Assembly (NCBI GenBank): GCA_027317945.1
Contig: DAHVQB010000003.1
Coordinates: 1-64,000, forward strand
Source of the DNA: Microcaldota archaeon
Lineage (GTDB): Archaea > Micrarchaeota > Micrarchaeia > Micrarchaeales > Micrarchaeaceae
Length of the DNA stretch: 64,000 bases
Reading direction: 5' to 3'
The notes beneath the pieces are model-generated. The model was given only the letters and a program-made list of their open reading frames with translations. It searched no databases and was not told the DNA's origin. The position numbers and the translations under genes are program-made. Positions 7,030-52,406 of the stretch are shown piece after piece. Position 1 is the first letter of the stretch. Each line of letters starts with the position of its first letter.

Positions 7030-7055
7030 GCGGCACGGCGGCAAGGTCCGGGCGG

Positions 7056-7973
7056 TTAAGACGCACTGCCGATGAAGGATGCCGGTATTGTGAACTCCGC
7101 GCCCGATACGTTGGTAGATACGTTCACTGCCTGCAGGTACGATGTGTCGTTCACTACCCCGTTTAGGATGTCCGTTTCATTGAAATACAGCGGCAGCCCC
7201 AATCCGCTTTCTATGCAGACGTCGAATGTGTTGTAGCTAGACAGCAGGCTCGAGGTCTCATTGGATACTATGAAATTATCGCATCTCCTGCCTGCGTACG
7301 AACGCACCCCGTCATATGATACCGAGACATTGCCGAGAAGGATTGCGTTGTCTACCGCAAGATAGCCCATGTAACTCAGGTTCTTGAGCGTGAAAGGGAA
7401 CGAGGTCAGGAAAGCAGCGCCGACTCCGCCCATGCAATATGGGCTGGAGTTTACCGGCATGCCCATAGTCGTGCTGAGCTGGCACGTAACGGTGCCGCTT
7501 GTCGTGTTATAGTAATAAAGCGTCGATGTGTTCCAGTCCAGCACCTTGCCGCTTGCAGCATCCATGTACGTTATGTTGCCCAGATAAACAGACTTGATGT
7601 CACTGCCCAGCGCGTACGAAGTTATAACCTGCGTAGTCGTTTCCTTCACGGTCAGATTAGGCGATTCGACTATGGTCTGCGGCGAGCTCGGCCCGCTCAC
7701 GTAAGTGACTGCGACGGCTCCGGAAAGCGTTGCATTCGCCAGGTCACTCATGTACATGCTCTCCGTGGCGTTGAGCCCTGTAGTGTTGGAAAAATTGAAA
7801 GCTCCGTTCGCGTGGTTGTTCGGCGATACGAATGCATAGTACGCTATCGCTATCAGCGCAGCTACCAGTATTATGACCAGCAGATAAATTATCGGGTTGG
7901 TGCCTCTTTTCGGCTGCCGAGGAACCGTGCTGGGCGTGGCAGTTGTTCCGCTCCTACTAGCCATTATGACCAT
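7056..7973 (-). CDS. Membrane-anchored secreted protein, unknown function
   Basis: About 305 aa. A Pro/Lys-rich cytoplasmic N-terminus precedes a single hydrophobic helix (IIYLLVIILVAALIAIAYY, near residues 28-47). The rest is an extracellular domain with many N-x-S/T sequons and several Cys, consistent with glycosylation and disulfides outside the cell. The start at 7973 lies about 25 nt after a TATA-like TATTTAATC; an ATG at 7964 is the alternative. No family recognised. Confidence 0.72.
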   Translation of the reverse strand: MVIMASRSGTTATPSTVPRQPKRGTNPIIYLLVIILVAALIAIAYYAFVSPNNHANGAFNFSNTTGLNATESMYMSDLANATLSGAVAVTYVSGPSSPQTIVESPNLTVKETTTQVITSYALGSDIKSVYLGNITYMDAASGKVLDWNTSTLYYYNTTSGTVTCQLSTTMGMPVNSSPYCMGGVGAAFLTSFPFTLKNLSYMGYLAVDNAILLGNVSVSYDGVRSYAGRRCDNFIVSNETSSLLSSYNTFDVCIESGLGLPLYFNETDILNGVVNDTSYLQAVNVSTNVSGAEFTIPASFIGSAS

Positions 7974-15195: not shown

Positions 15196-15244
15196 GGCAC
15201 CACATGGCCATGCGTGTTGCGCATGGCATCGCATAAGCATTATA

Positions 15245-15366
15245 CGCCGGGGGTGGGAATTGAACCCACGGAAGCCATTTCTGGCTAAACAGCTTAGCAG
15301 GCTGCCGCCCTTTAGTGGACATCGGGCAGATCGTCCGCCAAAAGCCTACCACTAGGCGACCCCGGC
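15245..15366 (-). tRNA. tRNA-Ser(GCU) with an apparent intron before the anticodon arm
   Basis: On the minus strand the acceptor stem GCCGGGG (15360-15366) pairs with CCCCGGC (15246-15252). The D arm GCCTAGTGGTAGGC is at 15344-15357. The T arm is GTGGG-TTCAATT-CCCAC. The anticodon arm GCAGC-CTGCTAA-GCTGT (15289-15305) carries anticodon GCT (15296-15298). A long variable arm AGCCA-GAAA-TGGCT identifies a serine tRNA. About 38 nt (15306-15343) sit between D arm and anticodon stem, where one nucleotide is expected. Removing about 37 leaves a normal 85-nt tRNA-Ser, so this is probably a non-canonical intron, though I could not place a clean bulge-helix-bulge. Confidence 0.85.
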
Positions 15367-15410
15367 AAGTGAACGCTAATAGTTGACCGTAAAGCAATAA
15401 AAGCTTAAGC

Positions 15411-39001: not shown

Positions 39002-41203
39002 ATGCAACGCTCAATGAATACCGCTTTCGGCGGCCAGATTGGTAGCGCAGCGCGGCGCCTGAAAGCGCAGACCGTAGTCGAATACTTGATGACCTACGGG
39101 TGGGCGGTACTCGCAATAGCTGTGGCTATAACTGCCTTGTATGCATTGGGGATTTTTAACATGGGAACAAATGCGTGCATACCGTCGTCTGGCTTCTTGT
39201 GCACGGATGCCGTTTATGGCACTGATGGAATAAGCATAAGTTTCGGGCAGCAAAGCGCTCAGATTTACTACGGCGACTGGGTATTTGTGGCACCGCAGAG
39301 TTCTGCCTTGATAAGCGGGATACCGGCGAACTTCTCGAACAACTTCCTGAACGGGGTCCAGATACCTGGCGGGGTGCTATCTCCAGGAGAGGTCGTATCG
39401 GTATTTTTCCCTACAGGCAAAGGAGGAGGGATACCGAAAGACGCGCCAGTAGGCACTCAATTTTCCGGCAGCGTTTGGTTTGGATACTGCCTGAAGCCAT
39501 GCTTCAGTCCGACCAACTTCACCCGCGCAGCTGCGCTTTCAATAGGCGAGAGCGGCACGCTGCTTTACGGACCTACTGGAAGCACTTCGTACACCGAGTA
39601 CTATCTCACGGAAGCGGCATCAACCTCTGCCGGCGGAGGCGTATATCCGGGATCCGGCTACTATCCTGCGGGATCGCCCATAAGTTTGAGGGCGACCAAC
39701 TCATCAAACTACATATTCAGCGGATGGTCGTGCCTCGGCTCAAATTGCTATAATGGGAACTCTGCCACAGGCAGCATAACCTTAAACAATAATATGACAG
39801 AGATAGCCAACTTCCAACTGATACCAGGTTATAACGGCCCTTCTTACATGCTCAATATGACGACGCGCCCTGTCGGAGGGGGAACTTTCTACCCTGCGAA
39901 CGGGTTACAGGAAGCCGATTCAATTGTAACGATATCAGCTTTCCAGAATTCTAGCTACACGTTTAATAGCTGGATTGGCACAGGAACAGGAAGCTATACA
40001 GGAAGCAACAATCCCGCCACAATAACAATGGGCAGCAACATAGTGGAAATCGCTAAATTCAACCAATCCGGGCCCCCGACCTACCCGCTCACCATGCTAG
40101 CAAGCCCGGGAGGCACGGGTTCTGTCAGCCCTGGCAACGTGATAGAGACTGCCAACCAGGTCTACAACATACTTGCAAATCCGGGCTCTGGCTACACCTT
40201 TAATAGCTGGGCAGGAACCGGCACAGGAAGCTACAGCGGGACCAGAAATCCTGCATCCATAAGCATGAATGGGCCGATAACGGAGATCGCCAATTTCGTA
40301 TATGCGCCTACCTATAACCCAACATCATGCACACAGTCTGCAGGCTGCGTCAGGGATATAGTATACTCGCAAAACACTACGCTGACTGGCGATATAGTCA
40401 CGACAGGAAGCATAACGGTAGAAAGCGGGGTGACGCTCACTACTGAAGGATACAGCATCATAGCGGGGGCATCCTTCTCAAACTCTGGCACAGTCTCTAC
40501 AGGCTCACCAGGCAATGGAGGGTCAAGCCAAGAGGGCACTGGCAATCAGGGAGGCAGTGTAATAGGGCTAGGTGGAAGCGGCGGCGGAGGAGGCGGGGGC
40601 AGCGGATACGGAGGCAGTGGATATTCTGGCGGAGCAGGCGGCACAGCGAATGCGACTGCAGGAGGGGGAGGAGGAGGCGGAACCAGCGGGAGCAGCAATG
40701 GAGGCAATGGCGCTTCGGGCAGCACGCCATCCGTGCCTTCACTCAGTAATTCTATGCTTGCCTCTTGGTTCTCCACAGGGATGGCACGGTTCCTTGAGGG
40801 TGCGGGAGGCGGGGGCGGCGGTCTCGCCTATTCTAGCGGTGCGCCAGGAGGCGCAGGAGGGCAGGGTGGTTACGGCTCTGGCGGAAGTTATGGCCTTTAT
40901 GTACAAGCGGACGCCATAATAGCAGGCACGATTAATGCCACTGGCAATAAGGGATTGGTAGGCAGCGGTGGAGAATGGTTCGGAGGCGGCGGAGGGGGAG
41001 GAGGAGGAGGCGGGGGCGGCGGGCTTGTCATACTTGCCTATAGCACCGGATCCACACCATCTACTACAGGAATAAGTGGTAGTGGAGGCGCAGGAGGGAG
41101 TGGAGGAGCTGGCACGTCAAGCGGCAATGGCGGAACCGGCGGCGGAGGAGGCAATGGCGCCGCTGTAACTTACTTATACAGTACGCCACCGATAACGCCA
41201 TAG
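39002..41203 (+). CDS. Giant pilin-signal surface protein with InlB-type repeats and Gly-rich C-terminus
   Basis: About 733 aa. Class III signal peptide KAQTVVEYLMTYGWAVLAIA, the same N-terminal domain as its neighbour (ACIPSSGFLCTD, IYYGDWVFV, GSVWFGYC), three InlB-type repeats (YIFSGWSCLG, YTFNSWIGTGTGSYTG, YTFNSWAGTGTGSYSG), then a different C-terminus: LTTEGYSIIAG and a very Gly-rich region. That C-terminus matches the truncated gene at 1-1032. It looks like a modular family that swaps C-terminal domains. The ATG at 39002 follows GTGTGAT; the GTG at 38993 lies within that sequence. Confidence 0.83.
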   Translation: MQRSMNTAFGGQIGSAARRLKAQTVVEYLMTYGWAVLAIAVAITALYALGIFNMGTNACIPSSGFLCTDAVYGTDGISISFGQQSAQIYYGDWVFVAPQSSALISGIPANFSNNFLNGVQIPGGVLSPGEVVSVFFPTGKGGGIPKDAPVGTQFSGSVWFGYCLKPCFSPTNFTRAAALSIGESGTLLYGPTGSTSYTEYYLTEAASTSAGGGVYPGSGYYPAGSPISLRATNSSNYIFSGWSCLGSNCYNGNSATGSITLNNNMTEIANFQLIPGYNGPSYMLNMTTRPVGGGTFYPANGLQEADSIVTISAFQNSSYTFNSWIGTGTGSYTGSNNPATITMGSNIVEIAKFNQSGPPTYPLTMLASPGGTGSVSPGNVIETANQVYNILANPGSGYTFNSWAGTGTGSYSGTRNPASISMNGPITEIANFVYAPTYNPTSCTQSAGCVRDIVYSQNTTLTGDIVTTGSITVESGVTLTTEGYSIIAGASFSNSGTVSTGSPGNGGSSQEGTGNQGGSVIGLGGSGGGGGGGSGYGGSGYSGGAGGTANATAGGGGGGGTSGSSNGGNGASGSTPSVPSLSNSMLASWFSTGMARFLEGAGGGGGGLAYSSGAPGGAGGQGGYGSGGSYGLYVQADAIIAGTINATGNKGLVGSGGEWFGGGGGGGGGGGGGGLVILAYSTGSTPSTTGISGSGGAGGSGGAGTSSGNGGTGGGGGNGAAVTYLYSTPPITP

Positions 41204-41238
41204 GCAGTATATTGGAATATCAGATGATGGTGTTTAAT

Positions 41239-41835
41239 ATGCGCTCCAAAACTATGCTTGTATTACTTCTTGCGGCTTATCTGATCCAGCAGGCAGCATG
41301 CGCAAGTAGCGGAACTTCGGTAGTGACGATTTCGAACAGCAGCATACATTTGACGGTAGGCAGGTATAGCGGCACTGTGATGATAATTAACTGCAGCGTA
41401 GCGTTGCAGAATGGGACTTCAGGGCGCACGGTCCTGATTTCGCCGAACCAGAAGGATCTTTTGGCTGAAGGTATAACCGTGAATGCAAGCCCAATATCAT
41501 TTTCGGATGCACCGCCGTTTCAATGCAGGATCATAATCGCGGCAAATCCCTCTGCCAAGCCCGGCAACTACTCGATTCAATTTGCAACCATTGGCGCAGA
41601 CCCTTCAATCAACAATGCAACAGTGAACGTATTTGTCTCCCCTTCACAGAGCACGACAACCCAACAGATTCCTGCCGGAACTGCCTCGGGCCCGCAGCAA
41701 ATCGGCCAACAGCCCGATTATGTTACGCAGTTATTTGTGACAATAGCAGCAATCATCGTCATTATCGCGTTGTATGTTACCATAATGAACAGGAGAAAAA
41801 GGAATTTTGATGCATTTCAAATAGAGCAAAGTTGA
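41239..41835 (+). CDS. Small secreted protein with signal peptide and C-terminal membrane anchor
   Basis: About 198 aa. Sec-type signal peptide (MRSKTMLVLLLAAYLIQQAACA), an extracellular beta-rich domain with sequons and two Cys, a Gln/Thr-rich linker, a membrane helix (LFVTIAAIIVIIALYVTIM) and a basic cytoplasmic tail. It closely follows the giant surface-protein genes and may help anchor or export them; this is inference. The open frame starts at a TTG at 41212; ATG 41239 after GGTGTTTAAT gives the clean signal peptide. Confidence 0.72.
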   Translation: MRSKTMLVLLLAAYLIQQAACASSGTSVVTISNSSIHLTVGRYSGTVMIINCSVALQNGTSGRTVLISPNQKDLLAEGITVNASPISFSDAPPFQCRIIIAANPSAKPGNYSIQFATIGADPSINNATVNVFVSPSQSTTTQQIPAGTASGPQQIGQQPDYVTQLFVTIAAIIVIIALYVTIMNRRKRNFDAFQIEQS

Positions 41836-41865
41836 AGCACGATGGATCATAATTGCAGTACCGCA

Positions 41866-43452
41866 TCAATACATGTTATTCAATCTTTTTATCCTGGCAT
41901 CTATCGGAGGATGCGATGACAACAAATCCGAGGTGTCATTCAGCAGGACACTGAGAAGCACATCCGCCGTATATAAGAATATTGCAACCGCGCAAATTAG
42001 GACCAACGAGAAAACCCATAACTGTATGGATAACCCGAAAAATAGGTAAGAGAAGAAGACGATGAGCATAATGTCCCCTCCAACTGTCTCAAGATTCCAT
42101 ACGCTGCCCCGCCGATTCATGTCCTGTCCACTGGAATGCGTATCCGAAAGGTATAGTTGAGCCGCTAAGCCCCCCATCATGCCGGTAATTGCGCCGCCCT
42201 TCCCATCAGCGTGACCCTTTATCTTACTGAGAGCGCTTGCAAGTGCGTGAGGATCCCTGGTAAGCCTTGCACCGTTCGCATCGGCCATGTACTCCCTGCT
42301 TCTGGAAACGGCAGGCCTTATCATTAGATTCAGAAGACCCGGCAATGTACCGAGGAAAAACCATAAGGAATACGCCACTACCAAGACGAACGCCATGGCA
42401 TAAAGGATGTTGGCGGGATTCTGCGTCACCACTGCGCCAGAAATCCATGGCGCCATAGCGGCAGGATATGCGGTGCTCAGTGCCCGTATCACTAAAAACA
42501 GCGATGGGGCCACGAAAAATGTAACGACTATCGCCACCAGCGACAGCACGATGAAAAATGCTGCCATATAGACCCAGCTCATAATTACAAGTAACAGCAC
42601 ACACAACAAACACAGGAGACCGAAGAAGACCAACGCTATCAGACCTATTGTGCCGCTCAACTGCATTGACATGATCCACGCAGTAACCGCCCCGAACACT
42701 ACGGATCCCAGGCCAAGGGCCATCATGGCTGGCAGGGACTCGCTAACTGATGATAAGGCCATGGCCTGTGGCTTTGTAATCAAGCTGAATATGCTCCTGA
42801 CGAATATTGCAGGCAAAGCTATGGCAGTTGCAAGCATTGTGGTTATGGTCATGAGTTGGCTGTCCCCATTGGCTATATGTGACGTTTCGTGCGCCAATAC
42901 GCCCTGAAGCTCCCTCTTATCCATGGTCTCCAGCAACGCGGAGGTAACCACTATCGCAGACTCGTTTCTTCCTCTGCTCGTGGCGAATGCATTAAGTGCT
43001 TCGGACTCCTGAATGTAAATTTTGGGCATGCGTATCTGTGTTGAAGCGGCCAGGCCCTCTACGGAAGAGTATAATGAGCGGTTCTGTGCCCTGTCCGCCG
43101 CTTTGGCACGCGACAATCGCAGTAGCATTTTATAACCTGCGAAATAGACGACCAGTACGTATGCGGCTGCCAGCACCATGCAGATAAGCAAGCCGTATGT
43201 TGTTACATAGCTGAACGTACCTGCTTGCGGGGCAGGGACTATGCCGGAACTCATGTTCATTGCATAGCCGTAGATTGAGCTGCCGCTGCTGGACAAAGCG
43301 CTTGAATCAAATGCATACGCATAGCCCACTACGATTATAAATGCAAATGTAGAGAAAACGAGGATGGCCCCTAAAATCAGTATCATTAGCAACGATTTGA
43401 CATGGTTTCTTTGTATCACGTCGAAAAAGCTGACGCCATTTGCAGTGCCCAT
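41866..43452 (-). CDS. htpX: M48 family membrane metalloprotease (HtpX-like)
   Basis: 528 aa, much longer than bacterial HtpX (about 290). Zinc site HETSH (HExxH) in GVLAHETSHIANGD near residue 190; third ligand Glu in SRSREYMADANGARL near residue 390. Hydrophobic segments at the N-terminus, several around the active site, and additional ones near residues 260-370 and at the C-terminus. Membrane-protein quality control in the cytoplasmic membrane is the usual role. Confidence 0.88.
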   Translation of the reverse strand: MGTANGVSFFDVIQRNHVKSLLMILILGAILVFSTFAFIIVVGYAYAFDSSALSSSGSSIYGYAMNMSSGIVPAPQAGTFSYVTTYGLLICMVLAAAYVLVVYFAGYKMLLRLSRAKAADRAQNRSLYSSVEGLAASTQIRMPKIYIQESEALNAFATSRGRNESAIVVTSALLETMDKRELQGVLAHETSHIANGDSQLMTITTMLATAIALPAIFVRSIFSLITKPQAMALSSVSESLPAMMALGLGSVVFGAVTAWIMSMQLSGTIGLIALVFFGLLCLLCVLLLVIMSWVYMAAFFIVLSLVAIVVTFFVAPSLFLVIRALSTAYPAAMAPWISGAVVTQNPANILYAMAFVLVVAYSLWFFLGTLPGLLNLMIRPAVSRSREYMADANGARLTRDPHALASALSKIKGHADGKGGAITGMMGGLAAQLYLSDTHSSGQDMNRRGSVWNLETVGGDIMLIVFFSYLFFGLSIQLWVFSLVLICAVAIFLYTADVLLSVLLNDTSDLLSSHPPIDARIKRLNNMY

Positions 43453-43560
43453 CGGTTAATCACGCCCCATGCAGACCATTGTGCATGCCGTGTTTTCCAA
43501 TGGCTGCTTAATTATAAAAATGTACTGCCTTGCGAAATCTGGTCCGTTACTTGTCCCATG

Positions 43561-44523
43561 TCACTTGGAGTCGCTGGTGTACCCTGATGTAGCCAGCGCC
43601 CTTTTCATCGCGCGTTTGTAAGACAGGTATGCCACCACGACTACAGTGAATATTACAAGGAAGAACCCTATCCCAAGGTTGCTAAGATTGTGTATCGTTA
43701 TGCCGGTGTTTATCCCTATATTGGCAAGCTGTGGATAAGCCAATATGGCTATGCCCCCTATTGCAAAAGCCATCCCGCCGTATTCAAGAACGTCGCTGCT
43801 TATCGTTCGCGATACGTATTGCATTCCTTTTGCGGTGAGCCTTTTTGCTTTCGTAAGCCACTTCCCGAATACTGCCCCGAATGCCACTTGCATTGTCATT
43901 GTTCCAAGGCCGAAAAGCAGGCCGGGCAGAAACCCGAAATACGCGCTAGGCATTGCAGGAACTAGGACCGTATACACTATCAAAGCGAATGCACCGAATC
44001 CGAAGCCCGCTATGATGCCATGGAAAAAGGCCAGTCTTGGAGGAACCGGCCTGAGATCTCCCTCAATACCTTCCAGTGAAGGATCCCTCTTGTGCTCCAA
44101 CTCGGCTTCCATTGTCCCTTTCGAATGACGATGTATGAAAATAGATCCAAGATTTTTCTCTATCATGTGCCAATGGAAATAAACTTCCTTCCTTTTTATG
44201 TATATCCCGGCAGCCAGCATTGCTATGCCTACAACAACGTATGTAAGGCCGAAAACAAGCGATGTCATGAATATCCCGGCCAGAGCGAAATATGCCGCCT
44301 CTGAAAGCACGGCCCTCTGCAGCGTAAAACCTGAAGAAAAGATGAGCCCCGCCTTCATCCCGCCTTTGGTGGTACCGCTTCCGACTGCATACGAGAATGT
44401 TATGGGCCACGTATGCTCATCCGGTGTGATCCCATGCATCAACCCGAGAATGTACGACAGCACCAAAGCAGTTATGGCGCCAACGTTTTCAGGATTCCAC
44501 AGATTTATTCCAAATCCAATCAT
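43561..44523 (-). CDS. Polytopic membrane protein, possible nickel/cobalt (NicO/UreH-like) transporter
   Basis: 320 aa with about seven hydrophobic segments and a His/Glu-rich cytoplasmic loop near residues 118-165. The first helix contains GLMHGITPDEHTWP, resembling the H-x4-D-H metal motif of NiCoT/UreH-type transporters (usually HAxDxDH). FFHGIIAGFGFGAFA and GLGTMTMQVAFG also resemble their helices. A nickel transporter would suit the nickel SOD 10 kb away. The motif match is imperfect, so treat the substrate as tentative. Confidence 0.55.
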   Translation of the reverse strand: MIGFGINLWNPENVGAITALVLSYILGLMHGITPDEHTWPITFSYAVGSGTTKGGMKAGLIFSSGFTLQRAVLSEAAYFALAGIFMTSLVFGLTYVVVGIAMLAAGIYIKRKEVYFHWHMIEKNLGSIFIHRHSKGTMEAELEHKRDPSLEGIEGDLRPVPPRLAFFHGIIAGFGFGAFALIVYTVLVPAMPSAYFGFLPGLLFGLGTMTMQVAFGAVFGKWLTKAKRLTAKGMQYVSRTISSDVLEYGGMAFAIGGIAILAYPQLANIGINTGITIHNLSNLGIGFFLVIFTVVVVAYLSYKRAMKRALATSGYTSDSK

Positions 44524-44721
44524 TCTGTCTACCTAATATTGCCAACAATTATAAGATTTTATGTCGGTGCAGCATTAAACTATTGGATGCGGCACCACCA
44601 ACTGCAACGCCGCAGCAATTTATGCGTTATGAACAGCTTATTGGGCTCTGCGTACTTTACTGAATCCGTGCAGTCCCGTCCGCTGTGCATTTATACATGT
44701 ATGCATACGCAGCCATACTAA

Positions 44722-45149
44722 TTAACCCTGACTGTCGCATTTAAACATCCAACGTACACCATACTTATCTGTCAGTGCACCGTATACCCCAAAAATGCCT
44801 TGAATAGCGGATCCAGGGTGGTTTTATCCGCCCCTTCAGCTAACTTACTAAAGATGGCTTTTAGCTCTTCGTAGGTACCTCCGATATACAAACATATAGT
44901 ATTGCCCTGCTTTGGCGCCCTTGTTTGGTGTAGCCAATCCGAAGCGCTAAACTCGACAACATCGCTTTTAAAATGAGCATAGAGGATCTTGTCTTGCATC
45001 TCTTTAGGCATCTGGTCTTTTACTGTAGAATCAGAAACCTTGGTGATATCCGACGTTCCGCCCAGGCACGATCCATAAAAGTTCAACGCCTCTGCACAGT
45101 TCCCATTGAAGAACAGATATGGTGTAAATTCTTTCACCACTAACACCAT
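44722..45149 (-). pseudogene. VOC/PhnB-like glyoxalase-fold gene with frameshift
   Basis: Frame one encodes 125 aa (TPYLFFNGNCAEALNFYGSCLGG, the PhnB/VOC start) and stops at 44772. Just before the stop, at the homopolymer CCCCAAAAA (44787-44795), moving to the other frame gives FGVYGALTDKYGVRWMFKC and a stop at 44722, exactly the conserved PhnB C-terminus. So one base is missing: a recent mutation, an assembly error or, less likely, a slippery site. PhnB-like proteins are cytosolic metal-binding enzymes of uncertain substrate. It borders the tRNA-Ala fragment. Confidence 0.8.
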
Positions 45150-45243
45150 GACTGAATATCATTCGGACTATAAAATACTATCAGGCGCGATTTCCAATCT
45201 GCTTCTCAGAAGTGCCAATTTTGCCTTCGGTGAAATAATTATA

Positions 45244-45298
45244 TTGACTCTGCGGGGATCGCACCAGCGACCTTCCGCTTGCAAAGCGGGCGCCCTCT
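45244..45298 (-). repeat. Copy of the 3' half of tRNA-Ala (probable att site)
   Basis: This segment repeats bases 48117-48171 of intact tRNA-Ala(UGC), from the end of the D arm through the anticodon arm, T arm and acceptor 3' strand, with only a few changes and single-base gaps. The 5' half of the tRNA is absent; the upstream sequence cannot pair with the acceptor. Direct repeats of a tRNA 3' half are the normal product of integrase-mediated insertion, so this is probably the distal att site of an element ending at 48188. Confidence 0.8.
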
Positions 45299-45331
45299 AG
45301 CTTTTTGCCATCTAGCTCTTGCCCCTTTTTA

Positions 45332-45421
45332 GCACCGTATATTTTTATTTCCGAAGACGCGGGCATCTGTGTCTTCGCACACAGATAATAGCGCGTCTAG
45401 AGATATAAAGGAATACGGTGC
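45332..45421. repeat. 90-nt imperfect palindrome (nested stem-loop)
   Basis: Three perfect blocks pair in nested order: GCACCGTAT (45332-45340) with ATACGGTGC (45413-45421); AGACGCG (45355-45361) with CGCGTCT (45392-45398); ATCTGTGT (45365-45372) with ACACAGAT (45379-45386) around the loop CTTCGC. It lies between the tRNA-Ala fragment and the 3' end of the P-type ATPase gene. It could be a terminator, a structured RNA or a protein-binding site at the element's edge. The rest of 45422-45540 holds short direct repeats of AAAAAGGTTT and no gene. Confidence 0.7.
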
Positions 45422-45540
45422 GGTTCATAGCTGTATTCGCACCAGTGTTTTCGGTCAAGCCTTTCCAAAAAGGTTTGCGCACCCAGGCTTTTTGTAAACT
45501 TTTCGTAAAAAGGTTTCATAGGTTACCAATAACTGTATTA

Positions 45541-47895
45541 CTAGGATATCCCAAAGCGACTGAACGCAGCTGTCTTTATCACATCATTTACCAGCATGAA
45601 AAAAGCAGATAAAGCCAGCACTAGAAGTATCGGCAGCGTTCCTATCTTGGGCATGAGTATCCCGAAATACGCTAGGGCTATCCCTATTGCAATGCCGGTC
45701 ACGGAGGTGACTGCAAGAGGAAAGCTCGGCATGGATTTCCAGAAGGCCCCTCTCTCCCTTATGTTTAATACCGTGAATTTGTCCGTTATATTCAACACCA
45801 GGAAGATCATTGTCTGGAGCTGCGTTAAGCTGAGTCCCAATATGACTATGCCTAACGGTATGAATGCTAGTGCCTCTGCCATAAGCACCACGCCCATGGC
45901 GCCAGAAGAGTACATGATTGACTTTATGTTCCATGCATTCGGTTTGTTTGAGTAATATACGTTGTCTGTAGAGATTGAGATGTTAACTATGTCATTAGTG
46001 AACATAAGCAATATTAGCAGGAACGGCGTTATGGGTGCAAAGCCGAATGCGATAAATGTTATCGCAACTAAACCCACTATCTGGAAGACCTTTGCTACTT
46101 TGACCATTGCATAAGTCGCCATCCTCTCGAAGATCCTCCTGCTCTCTTTCACCGCATCGACTATGACCCCAAGCCCATTCTTGGTGAGCACAAGCGCTGC
46201 AGAGCTCTTGGCTACATCTGTGGCATTGGCCACCGCAATGCCCACTTCGGCCTCCTTGAGCGCGGGGGCATCATTAACCCCATCGCCAGTCATTCCCACA
46301 ACAAATCCCTTGGCTTGCAGTGCCTTTACTATGGTATACTTGTCCTCGGGGTAGACTCCTGCGAATCCATCGGCTTTTATTATCCTCTCGTCTAGATCGC
46401 CGTGCTTTCCTTCAATCGTCAGCATTTTCTTCCCGAGCCCTATCTCACCGGCTATCTCGCTTGCCACGGCGACGCTATCGCCTGTAACCATCTTAACGGA
46501 TATGCCCAGTCCCTTAAGCTCCTCGATTAGGCGCTTCGCCTCTGGCCTGGGGGGATCATGCAACGCAACCAATCCTACTAGTTTCCAGTTGCCGCCACTC
46601 TTGCGGACAGCAACCGCGACAGCCCTGAGCCCATTGGCCGCTAGCTTCTCCATGTCTGAATTTACTTTGCTTATTGAAGCGGGACTGCTCCTGGTTAATT
46701 TCATTACTATCAAAGTGGCGCCCTTCGTAACTTCGTATTTGCCCCCATTGGCAATTTCTGCCTGAGTCCTCTTTGTGGATGGATTGAAAGGAATAAAGGA
46801 GAGCTGCCTGCCCCTCCTTATGCTCATGGCTTCAGAATACTCCAACACCGCATTGTCTATGGGGTCGTTGTCCTCCTGGCGCGACGCCTCGGCAGCGTAC
46901 CTGAGTAGCAATGCCTCATCGCAGCCATAAGGTATCAGCTCTCTGACAGTTATCGAGTTCTGGGTCAGAGTACCTGTCTTGTCCGTGCAGAGCACCTTCA
47001 TTATCGCTGTGTCCTCAATCGCTTCCAGCCTCGTGACCAGCACCGATTTCCTTGCAAGCTTCTCGGTGCCAAGCGCCATGGCGACAGTGAACGCGGCGGA
47101 CAGTGCCACCGGCACGGATGCGACTAACACCGTGAGCAGGAAAGGCAGAAGCGCCAATGCATCCGCATGAAGTACAAGCAGACCATAAACGAACATTATG
47201 GCCACTATGACTGTGTCCCCCATGATGAGATACTTCACCATTTTGAGTATTGCTTCCTCAAGATGCGATGCAGGGCCTGCAGTCTGCACCAGTTTCTCGG
47301 TGACCCCATACCTGGTATTGTAGCCCGTGTTTGTCACGATACAGGTGGCTTCCCCGCGCTTGACCACCGATCCCTGATACAGCGTGCTACCCTCATCCTT
47401 CTCGACGAAGAATGACTCACCGCTTATTATGGATTCGTCCACCTCAAGCATCTCACAGTCAACTACGCGTGCGTCGGCGGGTATTATGTCGCCTAGCCTC
47501 ATCCTTATTGTGTCTCCTGGAACGAGAAACCTTGCTGGGATTGTCTTCCATTGTCCGTCCCTCAGTACCCTTGCATGCGATGCCAGCATGCTCTTTAATG
47601 ATTCGACAGATTTGTCTGCTCTGTACTCCTCTAAGAATCCGACAACGGCGTTGAACACAAGAAGTGCTATTATTATGTATAAATCAGCCATCCTGCCTGT
47701 TGCGTATGATATGGCGGCAACGAGCCAGAGCAGTAGCTGTACTGGGCCATAGAATTTCCTGAGCAGCAACTCGTATGGATTCTTCTTCTTGGCCCTTACC
47801 TCATTATATCCATACTTTGCACGCTGCCTAGTCACTTCTCTTGATGCCAGCCCTTTCTGGGGCTTACCGGCACCTATGGCCATTCTATTAGACAT
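45541..47895 (-). CDS. P-type ATPase, plasma-membrane H+-ATPase (P3A) type
   Basis: 784 aa. SGES actuator loop, phosphorylation site CTDKTGTLTQNS, ATP-binding KGAT, and hinge MTGDGVNDAPALKEAEVGIA. Lack of a CPx motif and of N-terminal metal domains, the overall size and LEEYRADKSVESLKSMLA point to the P3A proton-pump group found in fungi, plants and some acid-tolerant archaea. It should extrude H+ from the cytosol. TATA box at 47916-47924 about 25 nt before the ATG. The gene lies between the tRNA-Ala gene and its partial copy, so it is probably imported cargo. Confidence 0.9.
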   Translation of the reverse strand: MSNRMAIGAGKPQKGLASREVTRQRAKYGYNEVRAKKKNPYELLLRKFYGPVQLLLWLVAAISYATGRMADLYIIIALLVFNAVVGFLEEYRADKSVESLKSMLASHARVLRDGQWKTIPARFLVPGDTIRMRLGDIIPADARVVDCEMLEVDESIISGESFFVEKDEGSTLYQGSVVKRGEATCIVTNTGYNTRYGVTEKLVQTAGPASHLEEAILKMVKYLIMGDTVIVAIMFVYGLLVLHADALALLPFLLTVLVASVPVALSAAFTVAMALGTEKLARKSVLVTRLEAIEDTAIMKVLCTDKTGTLTQNSITVRELIPYGCDEALLLRYAAEASRQEDNDPIDNAVLEYSEAMSIRRGRQLSFIPFNPSTKRTQAEIANGGKYEVTKGATLIVMKLTRSSPASISKVNSDMEKLAANGLRAVAVAVRKSGGNWKLVGLVALHDPPRPEAKRLIEELKGLGISVKMVTGDSVAVASEIAGEIGLGKKMLTIEGKHGDLDERIIKADGFAGVYPEDKYTIVKALQAKGFVVGMTGDGVNDAPALKEAEVGIAVANATDVAKSSAALVLTKNGLGVIVDAVKESRRIFERMATYAMVKVAKVFQIVGLVAITFIAFGFAPITPFLLILLMFTNDIVNISISTDNVYYSNKPNAWNIKSIMYSSGAMGVVLMAEALAFIPLGIVILGLSLTQLQTMIFLVLNITDKFTVLNIRERGAFWKSMPSFPLAVTSVTGIAIGIALAYFGILMPKIGTLPILLVLALSAFFMLVNDVIKTAAFSRFGIS

Positions 47896-47915
47896 AATGG
47901 ATTATCAAAAGAGAA

Positions 47916-47924
47916 GTATAAAAA
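47916..47924 (-). promoter_or_regulatory. TATA box for the P-type ATPase gene
   Basis: Reads TTTTTATAC on the minus strand, centred about 25 nt upstream of the ATG at 47895; a leaderless transcript is expected. Confidence 0.55.
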
Positions 47925-48116
47925 TCAACTCAACGAACTGCCGCATTACCATTTTTGCGAAGCTCCATCATTTCGTTCTTAGACGTGTAGGGCAATGCGG
48001 CTGCTAGTTCTGCTTTCATGTGTGCGATCTGCAGTTTTGTGTAGCCCCCAATCACCACAGTGATTTAGGTGATCATCTGCAACCGCAGCCCGGATTTGTC
48101 ATCATAAAACTGTGAT

Positions 48117-48188
48117 TGGACTCTGCGGGGATCGCACCCGCGACCTTCCGCTTGCAAAGCGGACGCTCTACTACTGAGCCAAGAGCCC
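48117..48188 (-). tRNA. tRNA-Ala(UGC)
   Basis: Full cloverleaf on the minus strand: acceptor GGGCTCT with AGAGTCC, D arm GCTC-GAGC, anticodon arm TCCGC-TTTGCAA-GCGGA with anticodon TGC (48154-48156), and T arm GCGGG-TGCGATC-CCCGC. The G3:U70 pair, the main alanine identity element, is present. 72 nt, no intron, discriminator A. Its 3' half is duplicated at 45244-45298. Confidence 0.96.
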
Positions 48189-48216
48189 GTTTAATGTTAA
48201 ATTAAAAGGAGTATAG

Positions 48217-48591
48217 CTATTTATCTTTTATTGGAGCGCTTCTTGCCGCTTGCTTTCTTGCCCTTTTGCTTGCCTTGGCACTTTTCGATTTGGCATTGGC
48301 CTTCTTCGCCTTTGATGCGGAACGTTTCGCATGCGTGGACCCTGCGGCGCCGCCCATGGTCATCCTCTCCAGCGAATCGAGGTCCCTGCGTTCCTGCGGG
48401 TTTGCAGTGGCGGATGCCGCATTGTTGAGCAGCTCGTCGATTATGTCATCGTTCACCGGCTCTGACTCCTTAGACGTGTTGGCCAGCACTGCATTCTCTA
48501 TATCTCCCATGTTCAATATCGTGCTGACGGACCTGAGCCTCTTTATCTCCTCCTGCTCCTTAGCCAGCTTGCTCTTTCTATTGTTAGACAT
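48217..48591 (-). CDS. Small protein with Lys/Ala-rich tail, unknown function
   Basis: 124 aa. The first 60 residues are charged and helical; the last 40 are almost only Lys, Ala, Ser and Arg, resembling histone H1-like or nucleic-acid-binding tails. No folded domain recognised. It lies close to tRNA-Ala on the same strand. Confidence 0.6.
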   Translation of the reverse strand: MSNNRKSKLAKEQEEIKRLRSVSTILNMGDIENAVLANTSKESEPVNDDIIDELLNNAASATANPQERRDLDSLERMTMGGAAGSTHAKRSASKAKKANAKSKSAKASKRARKQAARSAPIKDK

Positions 48592-48662
48592 CAGAATTAC
48601 GCCCTTCTACCTAAGAATGCTTTTCATATGCCTAATAAGGTATTTAACCTTTTACCTGCCCG

Positions 48663-49973
48663 TCATATCGAGAATGTCTCCCCGAGCTTAGGCACGACCG
48701 CGTTGTATTTGCGGGACAGGGCCGCCTTGAGCTGCTCTGCCTTCTCGTGCTCCCCGTGGACCACGAATATGTTCTTAACGCCGCGTATCTTCGCGGGTAT
48801 GCTCTCCAGCTGCGCCCTGTCCGCGTGCGCTGAGAGATGATACGTCTCAACCTGCAGCCGCGCCGGTATGTCGGCCCCGTTTATGTTTATCGTCTTGGCG
48901 CCCTCCTGCATTGCCCTGCCGAGCGTTCCGCTGGCCTGGTATCCCACCATTATCATCTTGTTGTCCGGGCCATTGGCTAGCTTAGACAGGTAGAACATTA
49001 TCGGGCCGCCGCTGAGCATCCCGCTGGTGGTCACTATTATGGAGCTCTCGCTTCCCGCGACTATCCTGTTGCGCTGGCTCTTGGTCTCCACTATGGTGAA
49101 GTTGGGGCTCTTGAAAGGGTCGTAATCGCTCATCAGTATCCTCTTCTGCAGCTCCTCCCTGCAGTATATGACGTTGTGCCTGTGTATCCTGAGCGCCTTG
49201 CTTATCATTCCATCGATGTAGAGCGGTACCTTGTGCAGCACCCCCGAATTCATGTAGTCGTCGAATATGAATAGTACCTCCTGCGCCCTGCCCACCGCGA
49301 AACTAGGCACCATGACCTTGCCGCCGGTCTTCAACGTCTCGTTTATGCTCTTCAGCAGCTTCTGCTCCGTGTCGTGGGTCCTGGGAAATGAGTCCTTATC
49401 AGCCCCGTACGTACTTTCTGTTATCAGCGTATCCGCCTCCAGATTCTTCAAGTCTGCACCTTCCAGCAGCCTTGTCTTCATGAGGTTTATGTCACCTGTG
49501 TAAACGACCTTGCTCTTGCCGTCGCTTATCGAGATTAGGGCGCTGCCTAGGATGTGGCCCGCCGGCTGGAACTTTATCGTGAGGTCTCGGAACAGGAACG
49601 GCTTGTTGTACTCTATTATCTTGAAGTGGCGCGACAGCTCGCCCATGCCCTCTTTAGATATGTTCGCGGGATTGGATATGCGTATGTAGTCGCCGAGCAG
49701 CACGTTGGTGAGCTCTATCGTGGGCTTTGTTGCGAACGTGTCGCCGCGGTACCCTGCGGTGTATATGTGCGGGAGGTATCCGCTGTGATCAAGGTGGGCA
49801 TGCGATATGAATATGCCGTCTACGTGCTTAAGCTGGTCGTCATCTATTATTGGGTATTCCTCCGTGCTGCCGAGTTTCACCCCTGCGTCCAGCAGTATCT
49901 TTGTCTTGTCCGTGCTTATCATTATGCAGCTTCTCCCGACTTCGTCTGCTGCACCAAAAAACGAAACTTTCAA
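48663..49973 (-). CDS. Beta-CASP metallo-beta-lactamase ribonuclease (archaeal CPSF73-like, short form)
   Basis: 436 aa. MBL motifs FISHAHLDHSGYLP (HxHxDH), GHILGSALI and VYTGDIN, then beta-CASP motifs (TLITESTYG, VPSFAVGRAQEVL, VTTSGMLSGGPIMFYL, TYHLSAHADRAQLE). It lacks the N-terminal KH domains of aCPSF1, so it belongs to the aCPSF2 group. RNA cleavage in processing or decay. Follows the coiled-coil gene by 24 nt. Confidence 0.92.
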   Translation of the reverse strand: MKVSFFGAADEVGRSCIMISTDKTKILLDAGVKLGSTEEYPIIDDDQLKHVDGIFISHAHLDHSGYLPHIYTAGYRGDTFATKPTIELTNVLLGDYIRISNPANISKEGMGELSRHFKIIEYNKPFLFRDLTIKFQPAGHILGSALISISDGKSKVVYTGDINLMKTRLLEGADLKNLEADTLITESTYGADKDSFPRTHDTEQKLLKSINETLKTGGKVMVPSFAVGRAQEVLFIFDDYMNSGVLHKVPLYIDGMISKALRIHRHNVIYCREELQKRILMSDYDPFKSPNFTIVETKSQRNRIVAGSESSIIVTTSGMLSGGPIMFYLSKLANGPDNKMIMVGYQASGTLGRAMQEGAKTININGADIPARLQVETYHLSAHADRAQLESIPAKIRGVKNIFVVHGEHEKAEQLKAALSRKYNAVVPKLGETFSI

Positions 49974-49997
49974 TTCAACACCTGATGCTGATATGGA

Positions 49998-50702
49998 TTA
50001 CTTGGGCGTCTTCTTCTTTATCACTGCGATGTCCTCGAAGTTGATCTCGGGCAACGAAGGCTGCTGCATCTTCCTCTTCTGCGTGTGCTGCCTTTCATGG
50101 CCTATGCCCAGCATCTTCCTGAGGGTCCTGTACTTGTCGTCCAGCTTGGCGTCCACCGCAGTTATCTGCTTGTCCAGCTCGCCGAGCGAAGCCTCGTAGT
50201 TCGTTATGTCGCCCTTGACGTACTCGACCTTGCGCTGCAGCCTGACTATCTTGAGCGCCTCGTTCAGCTCGTTGCTGACCTCGTTTATCTTCCTGACGAG
50301 GTCGCGCTCGGATGCCAGTGACGACGCTTCGGTTGATATCTTGAACTCCAGCTTGTTCTTCAGGTGCTTTAAGTAGCCGATGCGCTTTGACCTGGCTGTC
50401 GGATCGTCGTTCTGCTTCTCTATGGAGAGGAGCTTCCCGATAGCCACCAGTTCCGCCTCCTTGTATCCGAGCTTATGCCTCAATTCCTTCAGCTTTATTA
50501 TTATGGCGAACCTTTCTTTCTTTATCTCGTCTATCTCCTTCTTCAGGTTCTTGACTTCCTCGCTTCCGGATTCGCTGACCAGCTGCTCGATTGATTTTCT
50601 GGCGGGCTGCTCGTGCGCTGAAGCGGCAGGATTAGGGGCCTCTTGGGCCTTTTGCTGTCCTTCTTTTAAACTTTCATCCTTCTTATTCTCCTTATTATCC
50701 AT
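49998..50702 (-). CDS. Coiled-coil protein, unknown function
   Basis: 234 aa. Disordered Gln/Ala-rich N-terminus, then a long heptad-rich coiled coil (residues about 45-195) and a basic C-terminal tail with LPEINFEDIAVIKKK. No catalytic motif. It precedes the beta-CASP nuclease in the same direction and may be its partner, judged only by position. Confidence 0.7.
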   Translation of the reverse strand: MDNKENKKDESLKEGQQKAQEAPNPAASAHEQPARKSIEQLVSESGSEEVKNLKKEIDEIKKERFAIIIKLKELRHKLGYKEAELVAIGKLLSIEKQNDDPTARSKRIGYLKHLKNKLEFKISTEASSLASERDLVRKINEVSNELNEALKIVRLQRKVEYVKGDITNYEASLGELDKQITAVDAKLDDKYRTLRKMLGIGHERQHTQKRKMQQPSLPEINFEDIAVIKKKTPK

Positions 50703-50806
50703 TTATATACCTGTACACATTCTTGGTCGCCTATGCGCCATGCCATGGCACTCCAATAACTTTTTATCAAAATCTCTCATTGGTATTTTTATATATTGCC
50801 GCAATG

Positions 50807-51976
50807 TCAGGACAATGTCATAGCATCTATAGCCTTCTTGTAAGTATTAAGAAGCTTGTCGGTGGCGCGTCTGATTGAGAACTCCGCCGCCGTCTCTCGC
50901 ATTGTATTATAGGAACCTATGTTATATAAAACCTTTTCTATTTTTCTTGCACATGCGATACTGTCGCCAGGAGCGAATTTTTCGCCGTTTTCGCCGTCCT
51001 TTATCAGCTCGCCCAGCGCCAAGTAGTCCGCCCCTACCACAGGTTTGCCGCTTGCCATGGCCTCCAGCGACACTATGCCCTGCGTCTCGAATATTGACGG
51101 TATGCAAAAAACGTCAGACGATGCATAATATTTGGGCAGCTCGTCCCGCGGCACGAATCCAGTGAACCTCACATTATCAAGATGCAGCCTCTTTGCAACG
51201 GAGCGGTAATAGCGTTCCGCAGGCCCCGTGCCAACTATGACGCATTCTACGCATTTGCCCCTGAGGCGCTTCATCGCCTTAAGGAGGGTGGTGAGCTGTT
51301 TCTCCCTGCTTAGGCGGCCCACGTACAACACCATGTGCTTGTTGCCCCTGCGGAGCAACCTTCCCTTTAGTTCAGGATCTGCCATCTTTGGATTGAAACG
51401 ATTGGTGTCGACGCTGTTCGGCACCACCACCGCTTCGCCGATGCCGTTGTCTGCCAGCATGTTCTTTATGGTGGCAGTCGGCGCGGTGACCACATTGCAG
51501 CGATTGTAGAAGAACCTGGCATAGGGCCAGGCGGCCTTGTGTGCTATCCCGCCTACGAACCTGTTTGACGATATGTATTCGTTTATGACCGTCTTCTCGG
51601 TGAACATCGTGTGGAACGTGCCAACAGTGGGTATCATGTTAAGCTTGCCTGCCACCAGGGCAGATAGGCCCATGAAGAACGGCGTGTGGGCGTGTATCAC
51701 GTCCATGCTTATCTCGTTCACCTTCCTTGAATTGAAGTACGGAAATACCGCGAAATTGTATTGCGGGTATTTCTTGAACTTGATGCTCCTGACTACGAAA
51801 ACCCTGTCGTCCTCCCGCATGATCTGCCTCGTGCTCTTGTTGCCGGAGGCGAAAACGTAGACCTCATGCCCGCGGCGGTGCAACTCGGACCTGAAGTTCA
51901 GCATAGAGGAGACGACTCCGTCCTGTGCGGGTAGAAAGCTGTCTGAGTAAAAAGCGATCTTAAGCTTTTCCGACAT
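50807..51976 (-). CDS. Family 4 glycosyltransferase
   Basis: 389 aa, GT-B fold. N-terminal Rossmann half (FYSDSFLPAQDGVVSSMLNF), central VLYVGRLSREKQLTTLLKAM, and the donor-binding E-x7-E region in FCIPSIFETQGIVSLEAMASGKPVV. Members transfer sugars from nucleotide donors to lipids or glycans; a role in cell-surface glycolipid or protein glycosylation is plausible. It follows rpl15 by 10 nt, where secY usually stands. Confidence 0.9.
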   Translation of the reverse strand: MSEKLKIAFYSDSFLPAQDGVVSSMLNFRSELHRRGHEVYVFASGNKSTRQIMREDDRVFVVRSIKFKKYPQYNFAVFPYFNSRKVNEISMDVIHAHTPFFMGLSALVAGKLNMIPTVGTFHTMFTEKTVINEYISSNRFVGGIAHKAAWPYARFFYNRCNVVTAPTATIKNMLADNGIGEAVVVPNSVDTNRFNPKMADPELKGRLLRRGNKHMVLYVGRLSREKQLTTLLKAMKRLRGKCVECVIVGTGPAERYYRSVAKRLHLDNVRFTGFVPRDELPKYYASSDVFCIPSIFETQGIVSLEAMASGKPVVGADYLALGELIKDGENGEKFAPGDSIACARKIEKVLYNIGSYNTMRETAAEFSIRRATDKLLNTYKKAIDAMTLS

Positions 51977-51986
51977 TTTATCCTTT

Positions 51987-52406
51987 TCATTCTTTTGCTT
52001 TTTTGGCTTCGCGCAGGGCGACGGCAGTGCCGCCGGCGGCTTTTATCTTCTCCGCGGCCTTCTTTGAGAACCCGGCTGCCTTTATGGTTAGCGGCTTGCT
52101 GAGGCTGCCATTGCTCAGTACCTTGAAGTTGTTGAGCTCAAGCGTGTTGTCCTTTGCGGAAGCGAACATCTTGCTTATCTGGTCTAGGTTTATCTCATCA
52201 AGCTTGTGCTGGTCCCACTTAGTGAAGCCCTTCTTGTGCATCAGGTGGCGGTTGTAGACTACCATGTGGGTGAAGTTGTGCTTCCTCGCACCTGCGCCTC
52301 CGACGCCTCCGCGGTCACCCGCGCCCCTGGCATTCTTGATGTTTCCCATGCCCCACCTTCGGGTGCCGAGGTACTTCCTGCTCCTCTTCTCTTTCCTAAC
52401 TACCAT
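51987..52406 (-). CDS. rpl15: 50S ribosomal protein L15 (uL15)
   Basis: 139 aa. N-terminal Gly/Arg-rich rRNA-binding tail (RRWGMGNIKNARGAGDRGG) and a C-terminal domain with IKAAGFSKKAAEKIKAAGG. Assembly protein of the large subunit. It follows rpl30 by 3 nt, the normal end of the spc operon. Confidence 0.93.
   Translation of the reverse strand: MVVRKEKRSRKYLGTRRWGMGNIKNARGAGDRGGVGGAGARKHNFTHMVVYNRHLMHKKGFTKWDQHKLDEINLDQISKMFASAKDNTLELNNFKVLSNGSLSKPLTIKAAGFSKKAAEKIKAAGGTAVALREAKKAKE

Follow-up and report, generated by a model that had tools for sequence, protein, structure and literature searches.

As She et al. are said to have described in 2001 and 2004, an element can be captured after the splitting of its integrase, remain stuck in the chromosome and be reduced to useful genes. 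In the accessible part of PMC8371274, split integrases are presented as one archaeal lineage of single origin; these SSV-type integrases are tied to the PF16795 superfamily, with R-KxxR-Y as the motif of SSV1. According to the excerpt available of PMC4383910, Islander demands an integrase ORF within the island and a length of at least 2 kb. Our literature search (titles and beginnings of abstracts, most subscription journals being outside its scope) found no paper devoted to tRNA elements or to split integrases of Micrarchaeota.

The present analysis of a 64,000-nucleotide stretch of micrarchaeal DNA (hereafter the window) points to a decayed split-integrase element at tRNA-Ala(UGC) carrying a captured P3A-type H+-ATPase gene, a reading to which we give a probability of about 0.87 (Table 1). 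It is considered as the relic of an integrative element with one captured gene because of its shared ends, its integrase vestige, the repeat-free orthologous sites and its foreign ATPase, which together uphold the original prediction of an element inserted at a tRNA gene and worn down to a single cargo gene. As predicted, the 3′ part of the tRNA-Ala gene recurs about 2.9 kb away as a direct repeat (51 nt, tRNA positions 20-70, 94% identity, start-to-start spacing of 2873 bp; blastn E 8e-17 in a database made of the window and 60 loci). When queried with this tRNA, the genome's own assembly (72% complete) revealed three places: the gene, the fragment and a separate tRNA-Ala(CGC) gene. Only one long ORF, that of the ATPase, separates the gene from the fragment, and the GC profile shows no clear step at the element.

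Table 1. Features of the putative element and of its target gene in the window
Feature	Position	Strand	Basis
tRNA-Ala(UGC), intact; putative regenerated target (attL side)	48117..48188	-	ARAGORN; Rfam 67.6 bits
Left end with vestige of integrase 5′ part (int-C side)	47934..48116	-	Smith-Waterman, peptide match
TATA-like box of the ATPase gene, TTTTTATA, 21-29 nt upstream of ATG	47917..47924	-	sequence; putative promoter
P3A-type proton-efflux ATPase, 784 aa, sole intact gene of the element	45541..47895	-	TIGR01647, Pfam
Conserved right-end module, 283 bp: iteron-like repeats, TATA-like box, hairpin, int-N codons, tRNA fragment	45246..45528	-	nhmmer, blastn, covariance model
Palindrome: hairpin and TATA-like box (45402-45409) within the module	45332..45421	-	arms 45332-45361/45392-45421
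int-N vestige, frame open across the tRNA fragment, conserved start codon missing	45246..45327	-	frame comparison with other modules
tRNA-Ala 3′ fragment (attR)	45246..45296	-	sequence comparison, blastn

The right end is a conserved module that scores 291 bits with nhmmer (the window being one of the eight seed rows) and shares 77-88% DNA identity over 168-291 bp with right ends from G027, G004 (three), G001, G002, G066 and G063. The elements that share it belong to other genera and to one other family. It is present in 39 of the 164 genomes of the order, and the covariance model of the module gave 36 of 301. A separate count of modules left out L097 and L149, which are copies of L146. The large palindrome noted in the original prediction is indeed present, with arms that are 77% complementary. 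The four helices of the module core are paired in 95.4% of cells (25 rows), and the folding z of the whole module is -3.4. Covariation of the hairpin is moderate: double changes affect four of 22 pairs, a value equalled by 41 of 500 shuffles, and they occupy 12 cells, a number that none of the 500 shuffles reaches, two pairs holding 10 of the 12. A search of Rfam with positions 40000-52000 (E up to 1) returned nothing but tRNA, and the palindrome was thus rejected as a known RNA family. A coding function of the whole module was also rejected: the upstream repeats have indels that are not multiples of three (judged by eye) and therefore look like binding sites rather than codons. The position of the hairpin is that expected for the 5′ leader of the mRNA of the integrase, and it could regulate the switch.

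The earlier statement that the element has no integrase stands only in part: an intact integrase gene is absent, but a vestige of the start of such a gene lies beside the tRNA gene. It amounts to about 30-40 codons (47935-48050), frameshifted and broken off ahead of the ATPase gene. Its Smith-Waterman scores against the left ends of the two tRNA-Ala integrase genes of G002 are 53 and 48, and no random piece of the window of the same length (n = 2853) reaches either. Against the integrase gene of G001, seven of the 2853 pieces reach the score, and against that of G004 815 do, which is not significant. At the peptide level, the vestige is 54.5% identical to the G001 integrase over 22 aa (E 5e-4 among 16 proteins). 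The best reading phase is not the same at both ends of the window element, so that a deletion may have fused the ends of two different elements.

A tyrosine integrase gene is found directly at tRNA-Ala in three genomes of the same genus (G001, G002 and G004). That of G004 belongs to a full element (tRNA, integrase, right-end module and fragment), behind which an integrase-less single-gene unit stands in tandem. Comparison with related genomes, which the original prediction had recommended, gave five genomes with an orthologous tRNA gene, none of which has a 3′ copy within the 7.9-10.4 kb examined downstream. The assembly of G003 (60% complete), which seems very near the genome of the window (equal scores for two other proteins), does not include the locus and therefore provides no empty site within the species. 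It should also be emphasized that many of the compared genomes are incomplete. Enolase was of little help as a control gene, as it was found in only six of 11 genomes. Matches to the G004 integrase (E up to 0.001) occur in 101 of the 164 genomes of the order. Among 30 integrase loci, the ten closest to this integrase are all located at tRNA-Ala and the other 20 at tRNA genes for Glu, Lys, Val, Pro or Leu.

In the relatives, the integrase frame crosses the att core and a gene start is found in phase at the opposite end. At tRNA-Ala, every integrase frame (11 of 11) extends across the tRNA core, and only two phases occur; at each locus the frame that stays open longest past the tRNA was used, and that of L202 is interrupted further along. 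More broadly, 31 of 36 integrase frames, at tRNA genes for seven amino acids, remain open at least 43 nt into the tRNA, and five do not reach it; these 36 frames come from 38 loci, L210 and L104 (one place) having no tRNA in range. At the other end, 23 of 28 modules (hand-picked as full or nearly full out of 42) contain an ATG from which the frame stays open across the core, and in 22 of these the phase is one of those of the tRNA-Ala integrases. Furthermore, 15 of 18 integrase/fragment pairs, again at tRNA genes for seven amino acids, have an in-phase ATG that precedes the core end by 27-28 codons, compared to two of 36 out-of-phase control slots. This pair analysis had 26 rows, that is 25 integrase/tRNA pairs since L247 and L102 are one place; the 18 pairs exclude L230, L095, L238, L249, L248, L236 and L241, which show no fragment in the sequence examined, and L098, L100, L103, L104, L239, L242 and L246 gave no row. 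Neither a second L055 fragment, whose start is out of phase with its integrase and which was assigned to another unit, nor a 19-nt match in L231 was counted. These frame counts are not independent, since the rows are related and the tRNA-Ala genes are alike. In the window, the crossing frame is vestigial and there is no such start at the opposite end, the start codon being absent and the two ends differing in phase.

The six integrases that were scanned all match PF00589; in the scan of five of them at E up to 1, PF16795 was not listed. An HxLRH ORF is found in 29 of 30 loci, among ORFs selected by that pattern, in line with an R-HxxR-Y motif. Judging from these sequences, the elements of the relatives appear to follow the split ("suicidal") design, in integrases of the PF00589 HxxR type. 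A split example also seems to be present in the genome of the window itself, at tRNA-Leu (L101), which makes the split-integrase idea testable.

The gene enclosed by the repeats encodes the P3A-type H+-ATPase that had been proposed: its product reaches 733.9 bits against TIGR01647 (plasma-membrane proton-efflux ATPase; cut-off 615.5), and its best PDB relatives are fungal Pma1 and plant AHA2. The alignments with both proteins show the DKTGT phosphorylation motif and a transmembrane Asp aligned with that of AHA2 (ND motif) and that of Pma1, presumably the proton site; proton transport is predicted. The identity of the protein to the copies of G058 (72%) and G084 (69%) exceeds that of a neighbouring beta-CASP protein (59% and 58%, respectively). 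A tree of the ATPase, as the original prediction had advised, places the window copy nested among rows from another family. The ATPase of G001, from the same genus, is only 49% identical and belongs to a different clade, and the matches in G002 (92% complete) and G004 (96% complete) are weak (E no better than 8e-39), so that no copy at an unlinked, ancestral position was found in these close relatives. E values of this kind are at the level of other P-type ATPases. This pattern indicates a foreign affinity of the window ATPase, which probably derives from another micrarchaeal lineage. Such ATPases are common in the order, with a long match of at least 40% identity in 45 of 99 genomes, own genome included; the G061 match falls in two pieces.

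A scan of 15 other ATPase loci (14 places, L198 repeating L059) revealed no clear module: L063 has a weak 22-bit match 2.4 kb from the ATPase gene, L067 and L058 match through tRNA-like parts only, and the remaining loci give 4 bits or nothing. These loci rule out the ATPase as a fixed cargo of the module family. The ATPase gene of G021 lies beyond the element end at tRNA-Leu and therefore outside that element; in G095, an integrase/tRNA pair was sought in L246 and not found. For its carrier, the ATPase would be of benefit in proton export or in acid.

Taken as a whole, these data are consistent with the following history. The elements would circularise through a core that is the 3′ part of tRNA-Ala, and in the circle one integrase gene would span this core, with (i) the promoter, the leader with its hairpin and the initial 27-28 codons, counting those of the core, on one side and (ii) the catalytic part on the other. 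Integration would rebuild the tRNA gene, leaving the catalytic part promoterless beside it (left end) and sending the promoter and first codons to the far end, next to the tRNA fragment (right end). The window element would have kept its right end well, except for the start codon; of the catalytic part, only the first 30-40 codons would have survived at the left end, and the H+-ATPase gene of another micrarchaeal lineage would have come to occupy the interval between the two ends. Such an element could probably no longer move itself.

A doubtful but conceivable variant of this history is that the window element is a non-autonomous cassette, one of the integrase-less units with the same right end that full integrases would move in trans and that would accrete in tandem at tRNA-Ala like gene cassettes. 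Small integrase-less units in tandem fit this idea (tRNA and three modules both in L146 and in L147, the latter with units of 1-2 kb), as do gene-less units of the form tRNA-end-module-fragment in L153 and L167, the identity of their ends with those of integrase-bearing elements and the 101 genomes with integrase matches; excision of integrated elements by exogenous integrases is also mentioned in the consulted part of PMC8371274. However, integrase sequence is kept at the left end of the window, so that loss after integration explains the locus equally well, and the gene-less L153 unit resembles a deletion between direct repeats of the two arms.

The other explanations are much less probable. 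In an ordinary tRNA island of the pNOB8 type, a complete integrase gene would stand beside the tRNA and the open frame through the tRNA would be accidental. Such genes do adjoin a tRNA gene on the same strand (PMC3293823, in the portion accessible), an ATG directly follows the tRNA in G002, and five of the 36 frames stop short of it, but we disfavour this as improbable given the 31 frames that enter tRNAs for seven amino acids and the 15 of 18 pairs whose other end carries an in-phase ATG at a fixed distance. A local tRNA-Ala duplication on either side of a native ATPase gene, already named in the original prediction as an event that could account for the repeat, would fit the nature of both copies (tRNA-Ala) and the short distance between them. 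We nevertheless reject it as extremely improbable: the copy comprises only the 3′ part, beginning at tRNA position 20, it is joined to about 230 bp of non-tRNA element end common across genera, the module recurs in 39 of 164 genomes, and the five orthologous sites have no copy. Decay of an integrated split-integrase element is the preferred reading.

The remains in the window appear to point to a widespread family of elements in which insertion divides the integrase gene in two. More tentatively, and with somewhat less than an even chance that all parts hold together, suicidal integrases of a second line, independent of the first and of the PF00589 HxxR type, could sustain an economy of tRNA-based cassettes throughout this order of Micrarchaeota: full elements would split their integrase at many tRNA genes, stripped units keeping only the promoter/leader/att end would ride in trans, and single genes (AAA/DUF4143, AbiE, PIN toxins, restriction systems and a proton pump) would be stacked behind tRNA-Ala. 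This suggests how very small genomes could acquire defence genes and a proton pump singly at a tRNA gene. Furthermore, split-integrase elements can be mapped from sequence alone by means of the in-phase start at the far fragment.

Compared with known systems, the locus resembles tRNA islands of the Islander type by its tRNA gene and a displaced 3′ fragment, downstream and in the same orientation, and differs by the lack of an integrase ORF inside, where only the vestige remains. Since Islander requires this ORF and at least 2 kb, it would miss the window element and the smaller integrase-less units. A complete integrase gene outside attP, as in the pNOB8 type, is not the arrangement of most relatives, only five of 36 frames not crossing the tRNA. 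The islands of Mia14 ("Ca. Mancarchaeum"), as described in the available section of PMC5498576, share a related host group, acid mine water and a P-type ATPase among their genes, but this ATPase is of the copper type and the largest island (36.5 kb) is inserted in a protein gene. Integrons also combine a tyrosine recombinase and a structured recombination site with units of few genes arranged in tandem; here, the site is a tRNA-derived core, and the one integrase compared with the integron-integrase (IntI) model reached 24 bits (cut-off 265). The closest likeness is with SSV1, pTN3 and pT26-2 ("suicidal", type I), with an att site within the integrase gene, a tRNA target, division of this gene into int(N) and int(C) when the element integrates, and the occurrence of both stranded elements and captured genes. 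The present integrases differ by matching PF00589, with R-HxxR-Y, rather than PF16795 and R-KxxR-Y. If true, this second design, in DPANN integrases of another Pfam family, would mean that self-splitting on insertion has evolved repeatedly, a point relevant to the persistence of so self-defeating a system. Compared to the captured elements of She et al., the present one has a DPANN host, a single P3A pump as cargo and a better kept right end.

The P3A ATPase gene of the window is carried by the fossil of a tRNA-Ala integrative element that has kept a nearly whole right end, an integrase cut to its first codons and one foreign gene. The last 51 bp of the conserved end piece (hereafter the module) are a 94% copy of positions 20-70 of the tRNA-Ala, and chance is a poor account of this repeat and of the module.

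Layout of the element and other features of the window
Feature	Position	Strand	Remark
tRNA-Ala(UGC)	48188-48117	minus	first feature, reading with the genes
P3A ATPase gene	47895-45541	minus	221 bp past tRNA-Ala(UGC)
End piece, 283 bp	45528-45246	minus	12 bp past the P3A ATPase gene
Gene of a 320-aa protein	43561-44523	minus	membrane-like by eye
Two large ORFs, 756 and 736 aa	36719-41203	plus	starts resemble, by eye, class III signal peptides of pilin-like proteins
tRNA-Arg(ACG) with intron	15244-15367	minus	ARAGORN with introns allowed; absent from the default run

The module is a hallmark of a whole family of elements. The 306 bp including the end piece are 77-88% identical over 168-291 bp to right ends from other genomes, and additional matches are shorter or weaker, such as those of 69-70% in loci L093 and L108. 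An order-wide DNA search covering 164 genomes and 54 genera detected the module in 39 genomes and 22 genera. In the phylum (301 genomes, 126 genera), a covariance model used with strict filters detected it in at least 36 genomes, and the 36 detected all belong to the order of the window. Among the 42 copies present in the 32 longer loci that were fetched, 30 have a tRNA-Ala-like 3′ fragment behind them and 24 are preceded within 12 kb by an intact tRNA on the same strand, the upstream sequence of the other 18 being limited to 28 bp to 9.2 kb. According to ARAGORN, these 24 tRNAs are 22 Ala, one Cys and one Phe, the last two with an intron. The large palindrome noticed in the original prediction lies inside the module; the four helices of the core pair in 95.4% of cells (25 rows). 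Two gene-less units (L153, 11365-11722; L167, 7148-7483) consist of tRNA-Ala, 44 or 67 bp, module and fragment.

The same site was compared in 13 loci, window included, where a beta-CASP gene adjoins this tRNA. A 3′ copy of the tRNA is found within the sequence examined in the window, G004 and G007, and further away in G001. The original prediction proposed comparing related genomes for an empty site; five loci (G034, G024, G009, G021 and G008) lack a 3′ copy in the 7.9-10.4 kb examined downstream. The other four have less than 2 kb of downstream sequence, which shows an integrase in G002 and a truncated module in G026. In G004, a same-genus relative, an integrase gene and three more genes come after the orthologous tRNA; behind them are two modules, each with a fragment, separated by a single AAA/DUF4143 gene. 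An integrase also adjoins this tRNA in two other such relatives, G001 (with a fragment 13.6 kb further) and G002.

The left end of the window element aligns with the first part of both tRNA-Ala integrase genes of G002 (local scores 53 and 48, equalled by none of 2853 random window pieces), whereas the scores against the G001 and G004 genes are reached by 7 and 815 of these pieces, respectively. This integrase vestige is thus G002-like; it is frameshifted and stops short of the ATPase gene. Since the two ends of the window element disagree in phase, a proximal and a distal element may have been fused by deletion.

Of 30 integrase loci, the ten whose integrases are nearest to that of G004 are all at tRNA-Ala, and the remaining 20 are at tRNA-Glu, Lys, Val, Pro or Leu. 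The frames of all 11 tRNA-Ala integrases can be followed back across the 51-nt tRNA core without meeting a stop, and two phases occur among them. At the far end, 23 of 28 modules have an ATG 81-106 nt ahead of the core end with a frame open through the core; 22 of them end in the two phases of the integrases and one is off by a base. In the window module, the frame is open although there is no ATG at the conserved start position. More generally, 31 of 36 integrase frames continue for 43 nt or more inside the tRNA (Ala, Glu, Gln, Val, Leu, Pro, Lys); the exceptions are at tRNA-Pro(CGG) (n = 3), Val (n = 1) and Glu (n = 1). The strongest test of a split gene considers both ends of one element: in 15 of 18 integrase/fragment pairs, an ATG in the phase of the integrase lies 27-28 codons ahead of the core end, rows being related so that none of the counts of pairs, modules and integrase frames represents independent events. 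The same spacing occurs in other phases in 2 of 36 slots (G001 and G021, which are two of the three failing pairs); the third failing pair (G149, tRNA-Lys) has an in-phase ATG at 45 codons. By eye, far-end peptides are similar among elements of one tRNA type. The own assembly of the window (678,297 bases, 72% complete) appears to harbor, at tRNA-Leu(UAG) on contig C3 (L101), an element with a split integrase: the integrase lies at 6503-7432(-) and the far-end start is in phase.

In the chosen set of ORFs scanned, the genes adjoining modules encode AAA_14/DUF4143 proteins (PADLOC candidate PDC-S01), AbiEi/AbiEii, PIN domains, a methylase with a BsaWI-type nuclease, GmrSD, and AlkZ-like, Exo_endo_phos, DnaJ and AN1 zinc-finger proteins; for some of these loci (L157, L155) no tRNA-Ala was seen upstream. 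Locus L147 (7860-12132) has a tRNA-Ala and, behind it, units of 1-2 kb in which three modules bracket an AAA/DUF4143 gene and two PIN genes, the latter with small partners; a profile search found no integrase there. Such stripped units may still be mobile in trans.

The ATPase of the window passes TIGR01647 and its nearest solved structures are fungal Pma1 and plant AHA2; we infer a role of this pump in acid. Its nearest named relatives (six loci) are from Micrarchaeota (n = 4), Marsarchaeota and Methanofollis (40%). Within the genus, the G001 ATPase is 49% identical (E 4e-224), and the matches in G002, G003 and G004 are no more than weak (best E 8e-39, 1e-34 and 2e-37), being other P-type ATPases judging from size and coverage. 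The closest proteins are from G058, of the same family (72%), and G084, of another family (69%), whereas the beta-CASP protein reaches only 59% and 58% with these genomes. The original prediction of a cargo gene agrees with the ATPase tree, where the window and G058 are joined (100/98) and this pair falls, at a large distance from G001, within supported sets of 8 rows (96/98) and 9 rows (100/100) that include other families. In G084, the ATPase gene is flanked by a tRNA-Arg(UCG) and an exact 29-nt repeat of the 3′ end of that tRNA (L059, 9502-9530 and 13676-13751); therefore, a pump of this kind seems to have been captured behind a second tRNA as well. On the G001 contig that carries this genome's own P3A ATPase, a truncated integrase of the tRNA-Ala type and a degenerate copy of tRNA-Ala stand at the start, at a distance of 3.5 kb from that ATPase (L058, 111-553). 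The 320-aa protein, which has no Pfam, NCBIfam or PHROG match, shares 68% identity with its G084 relative versus 44-48% with same-genus copies, and a truncated relative adjoins the ATPase in G058; its gene and the pump were perhaps transferred together.

Suicidal integrases are described in a review (PMC8371274) as having arisen once, in the PF16795 superfamily. The micrarchaeal integrases match PF00589 (six proteins scanned), and PF16795 was not listed when five of them were scanned with an E limit of 1. They display HxLR where SSV-type integrases have KxxR, but both share the same split-gene geometry.
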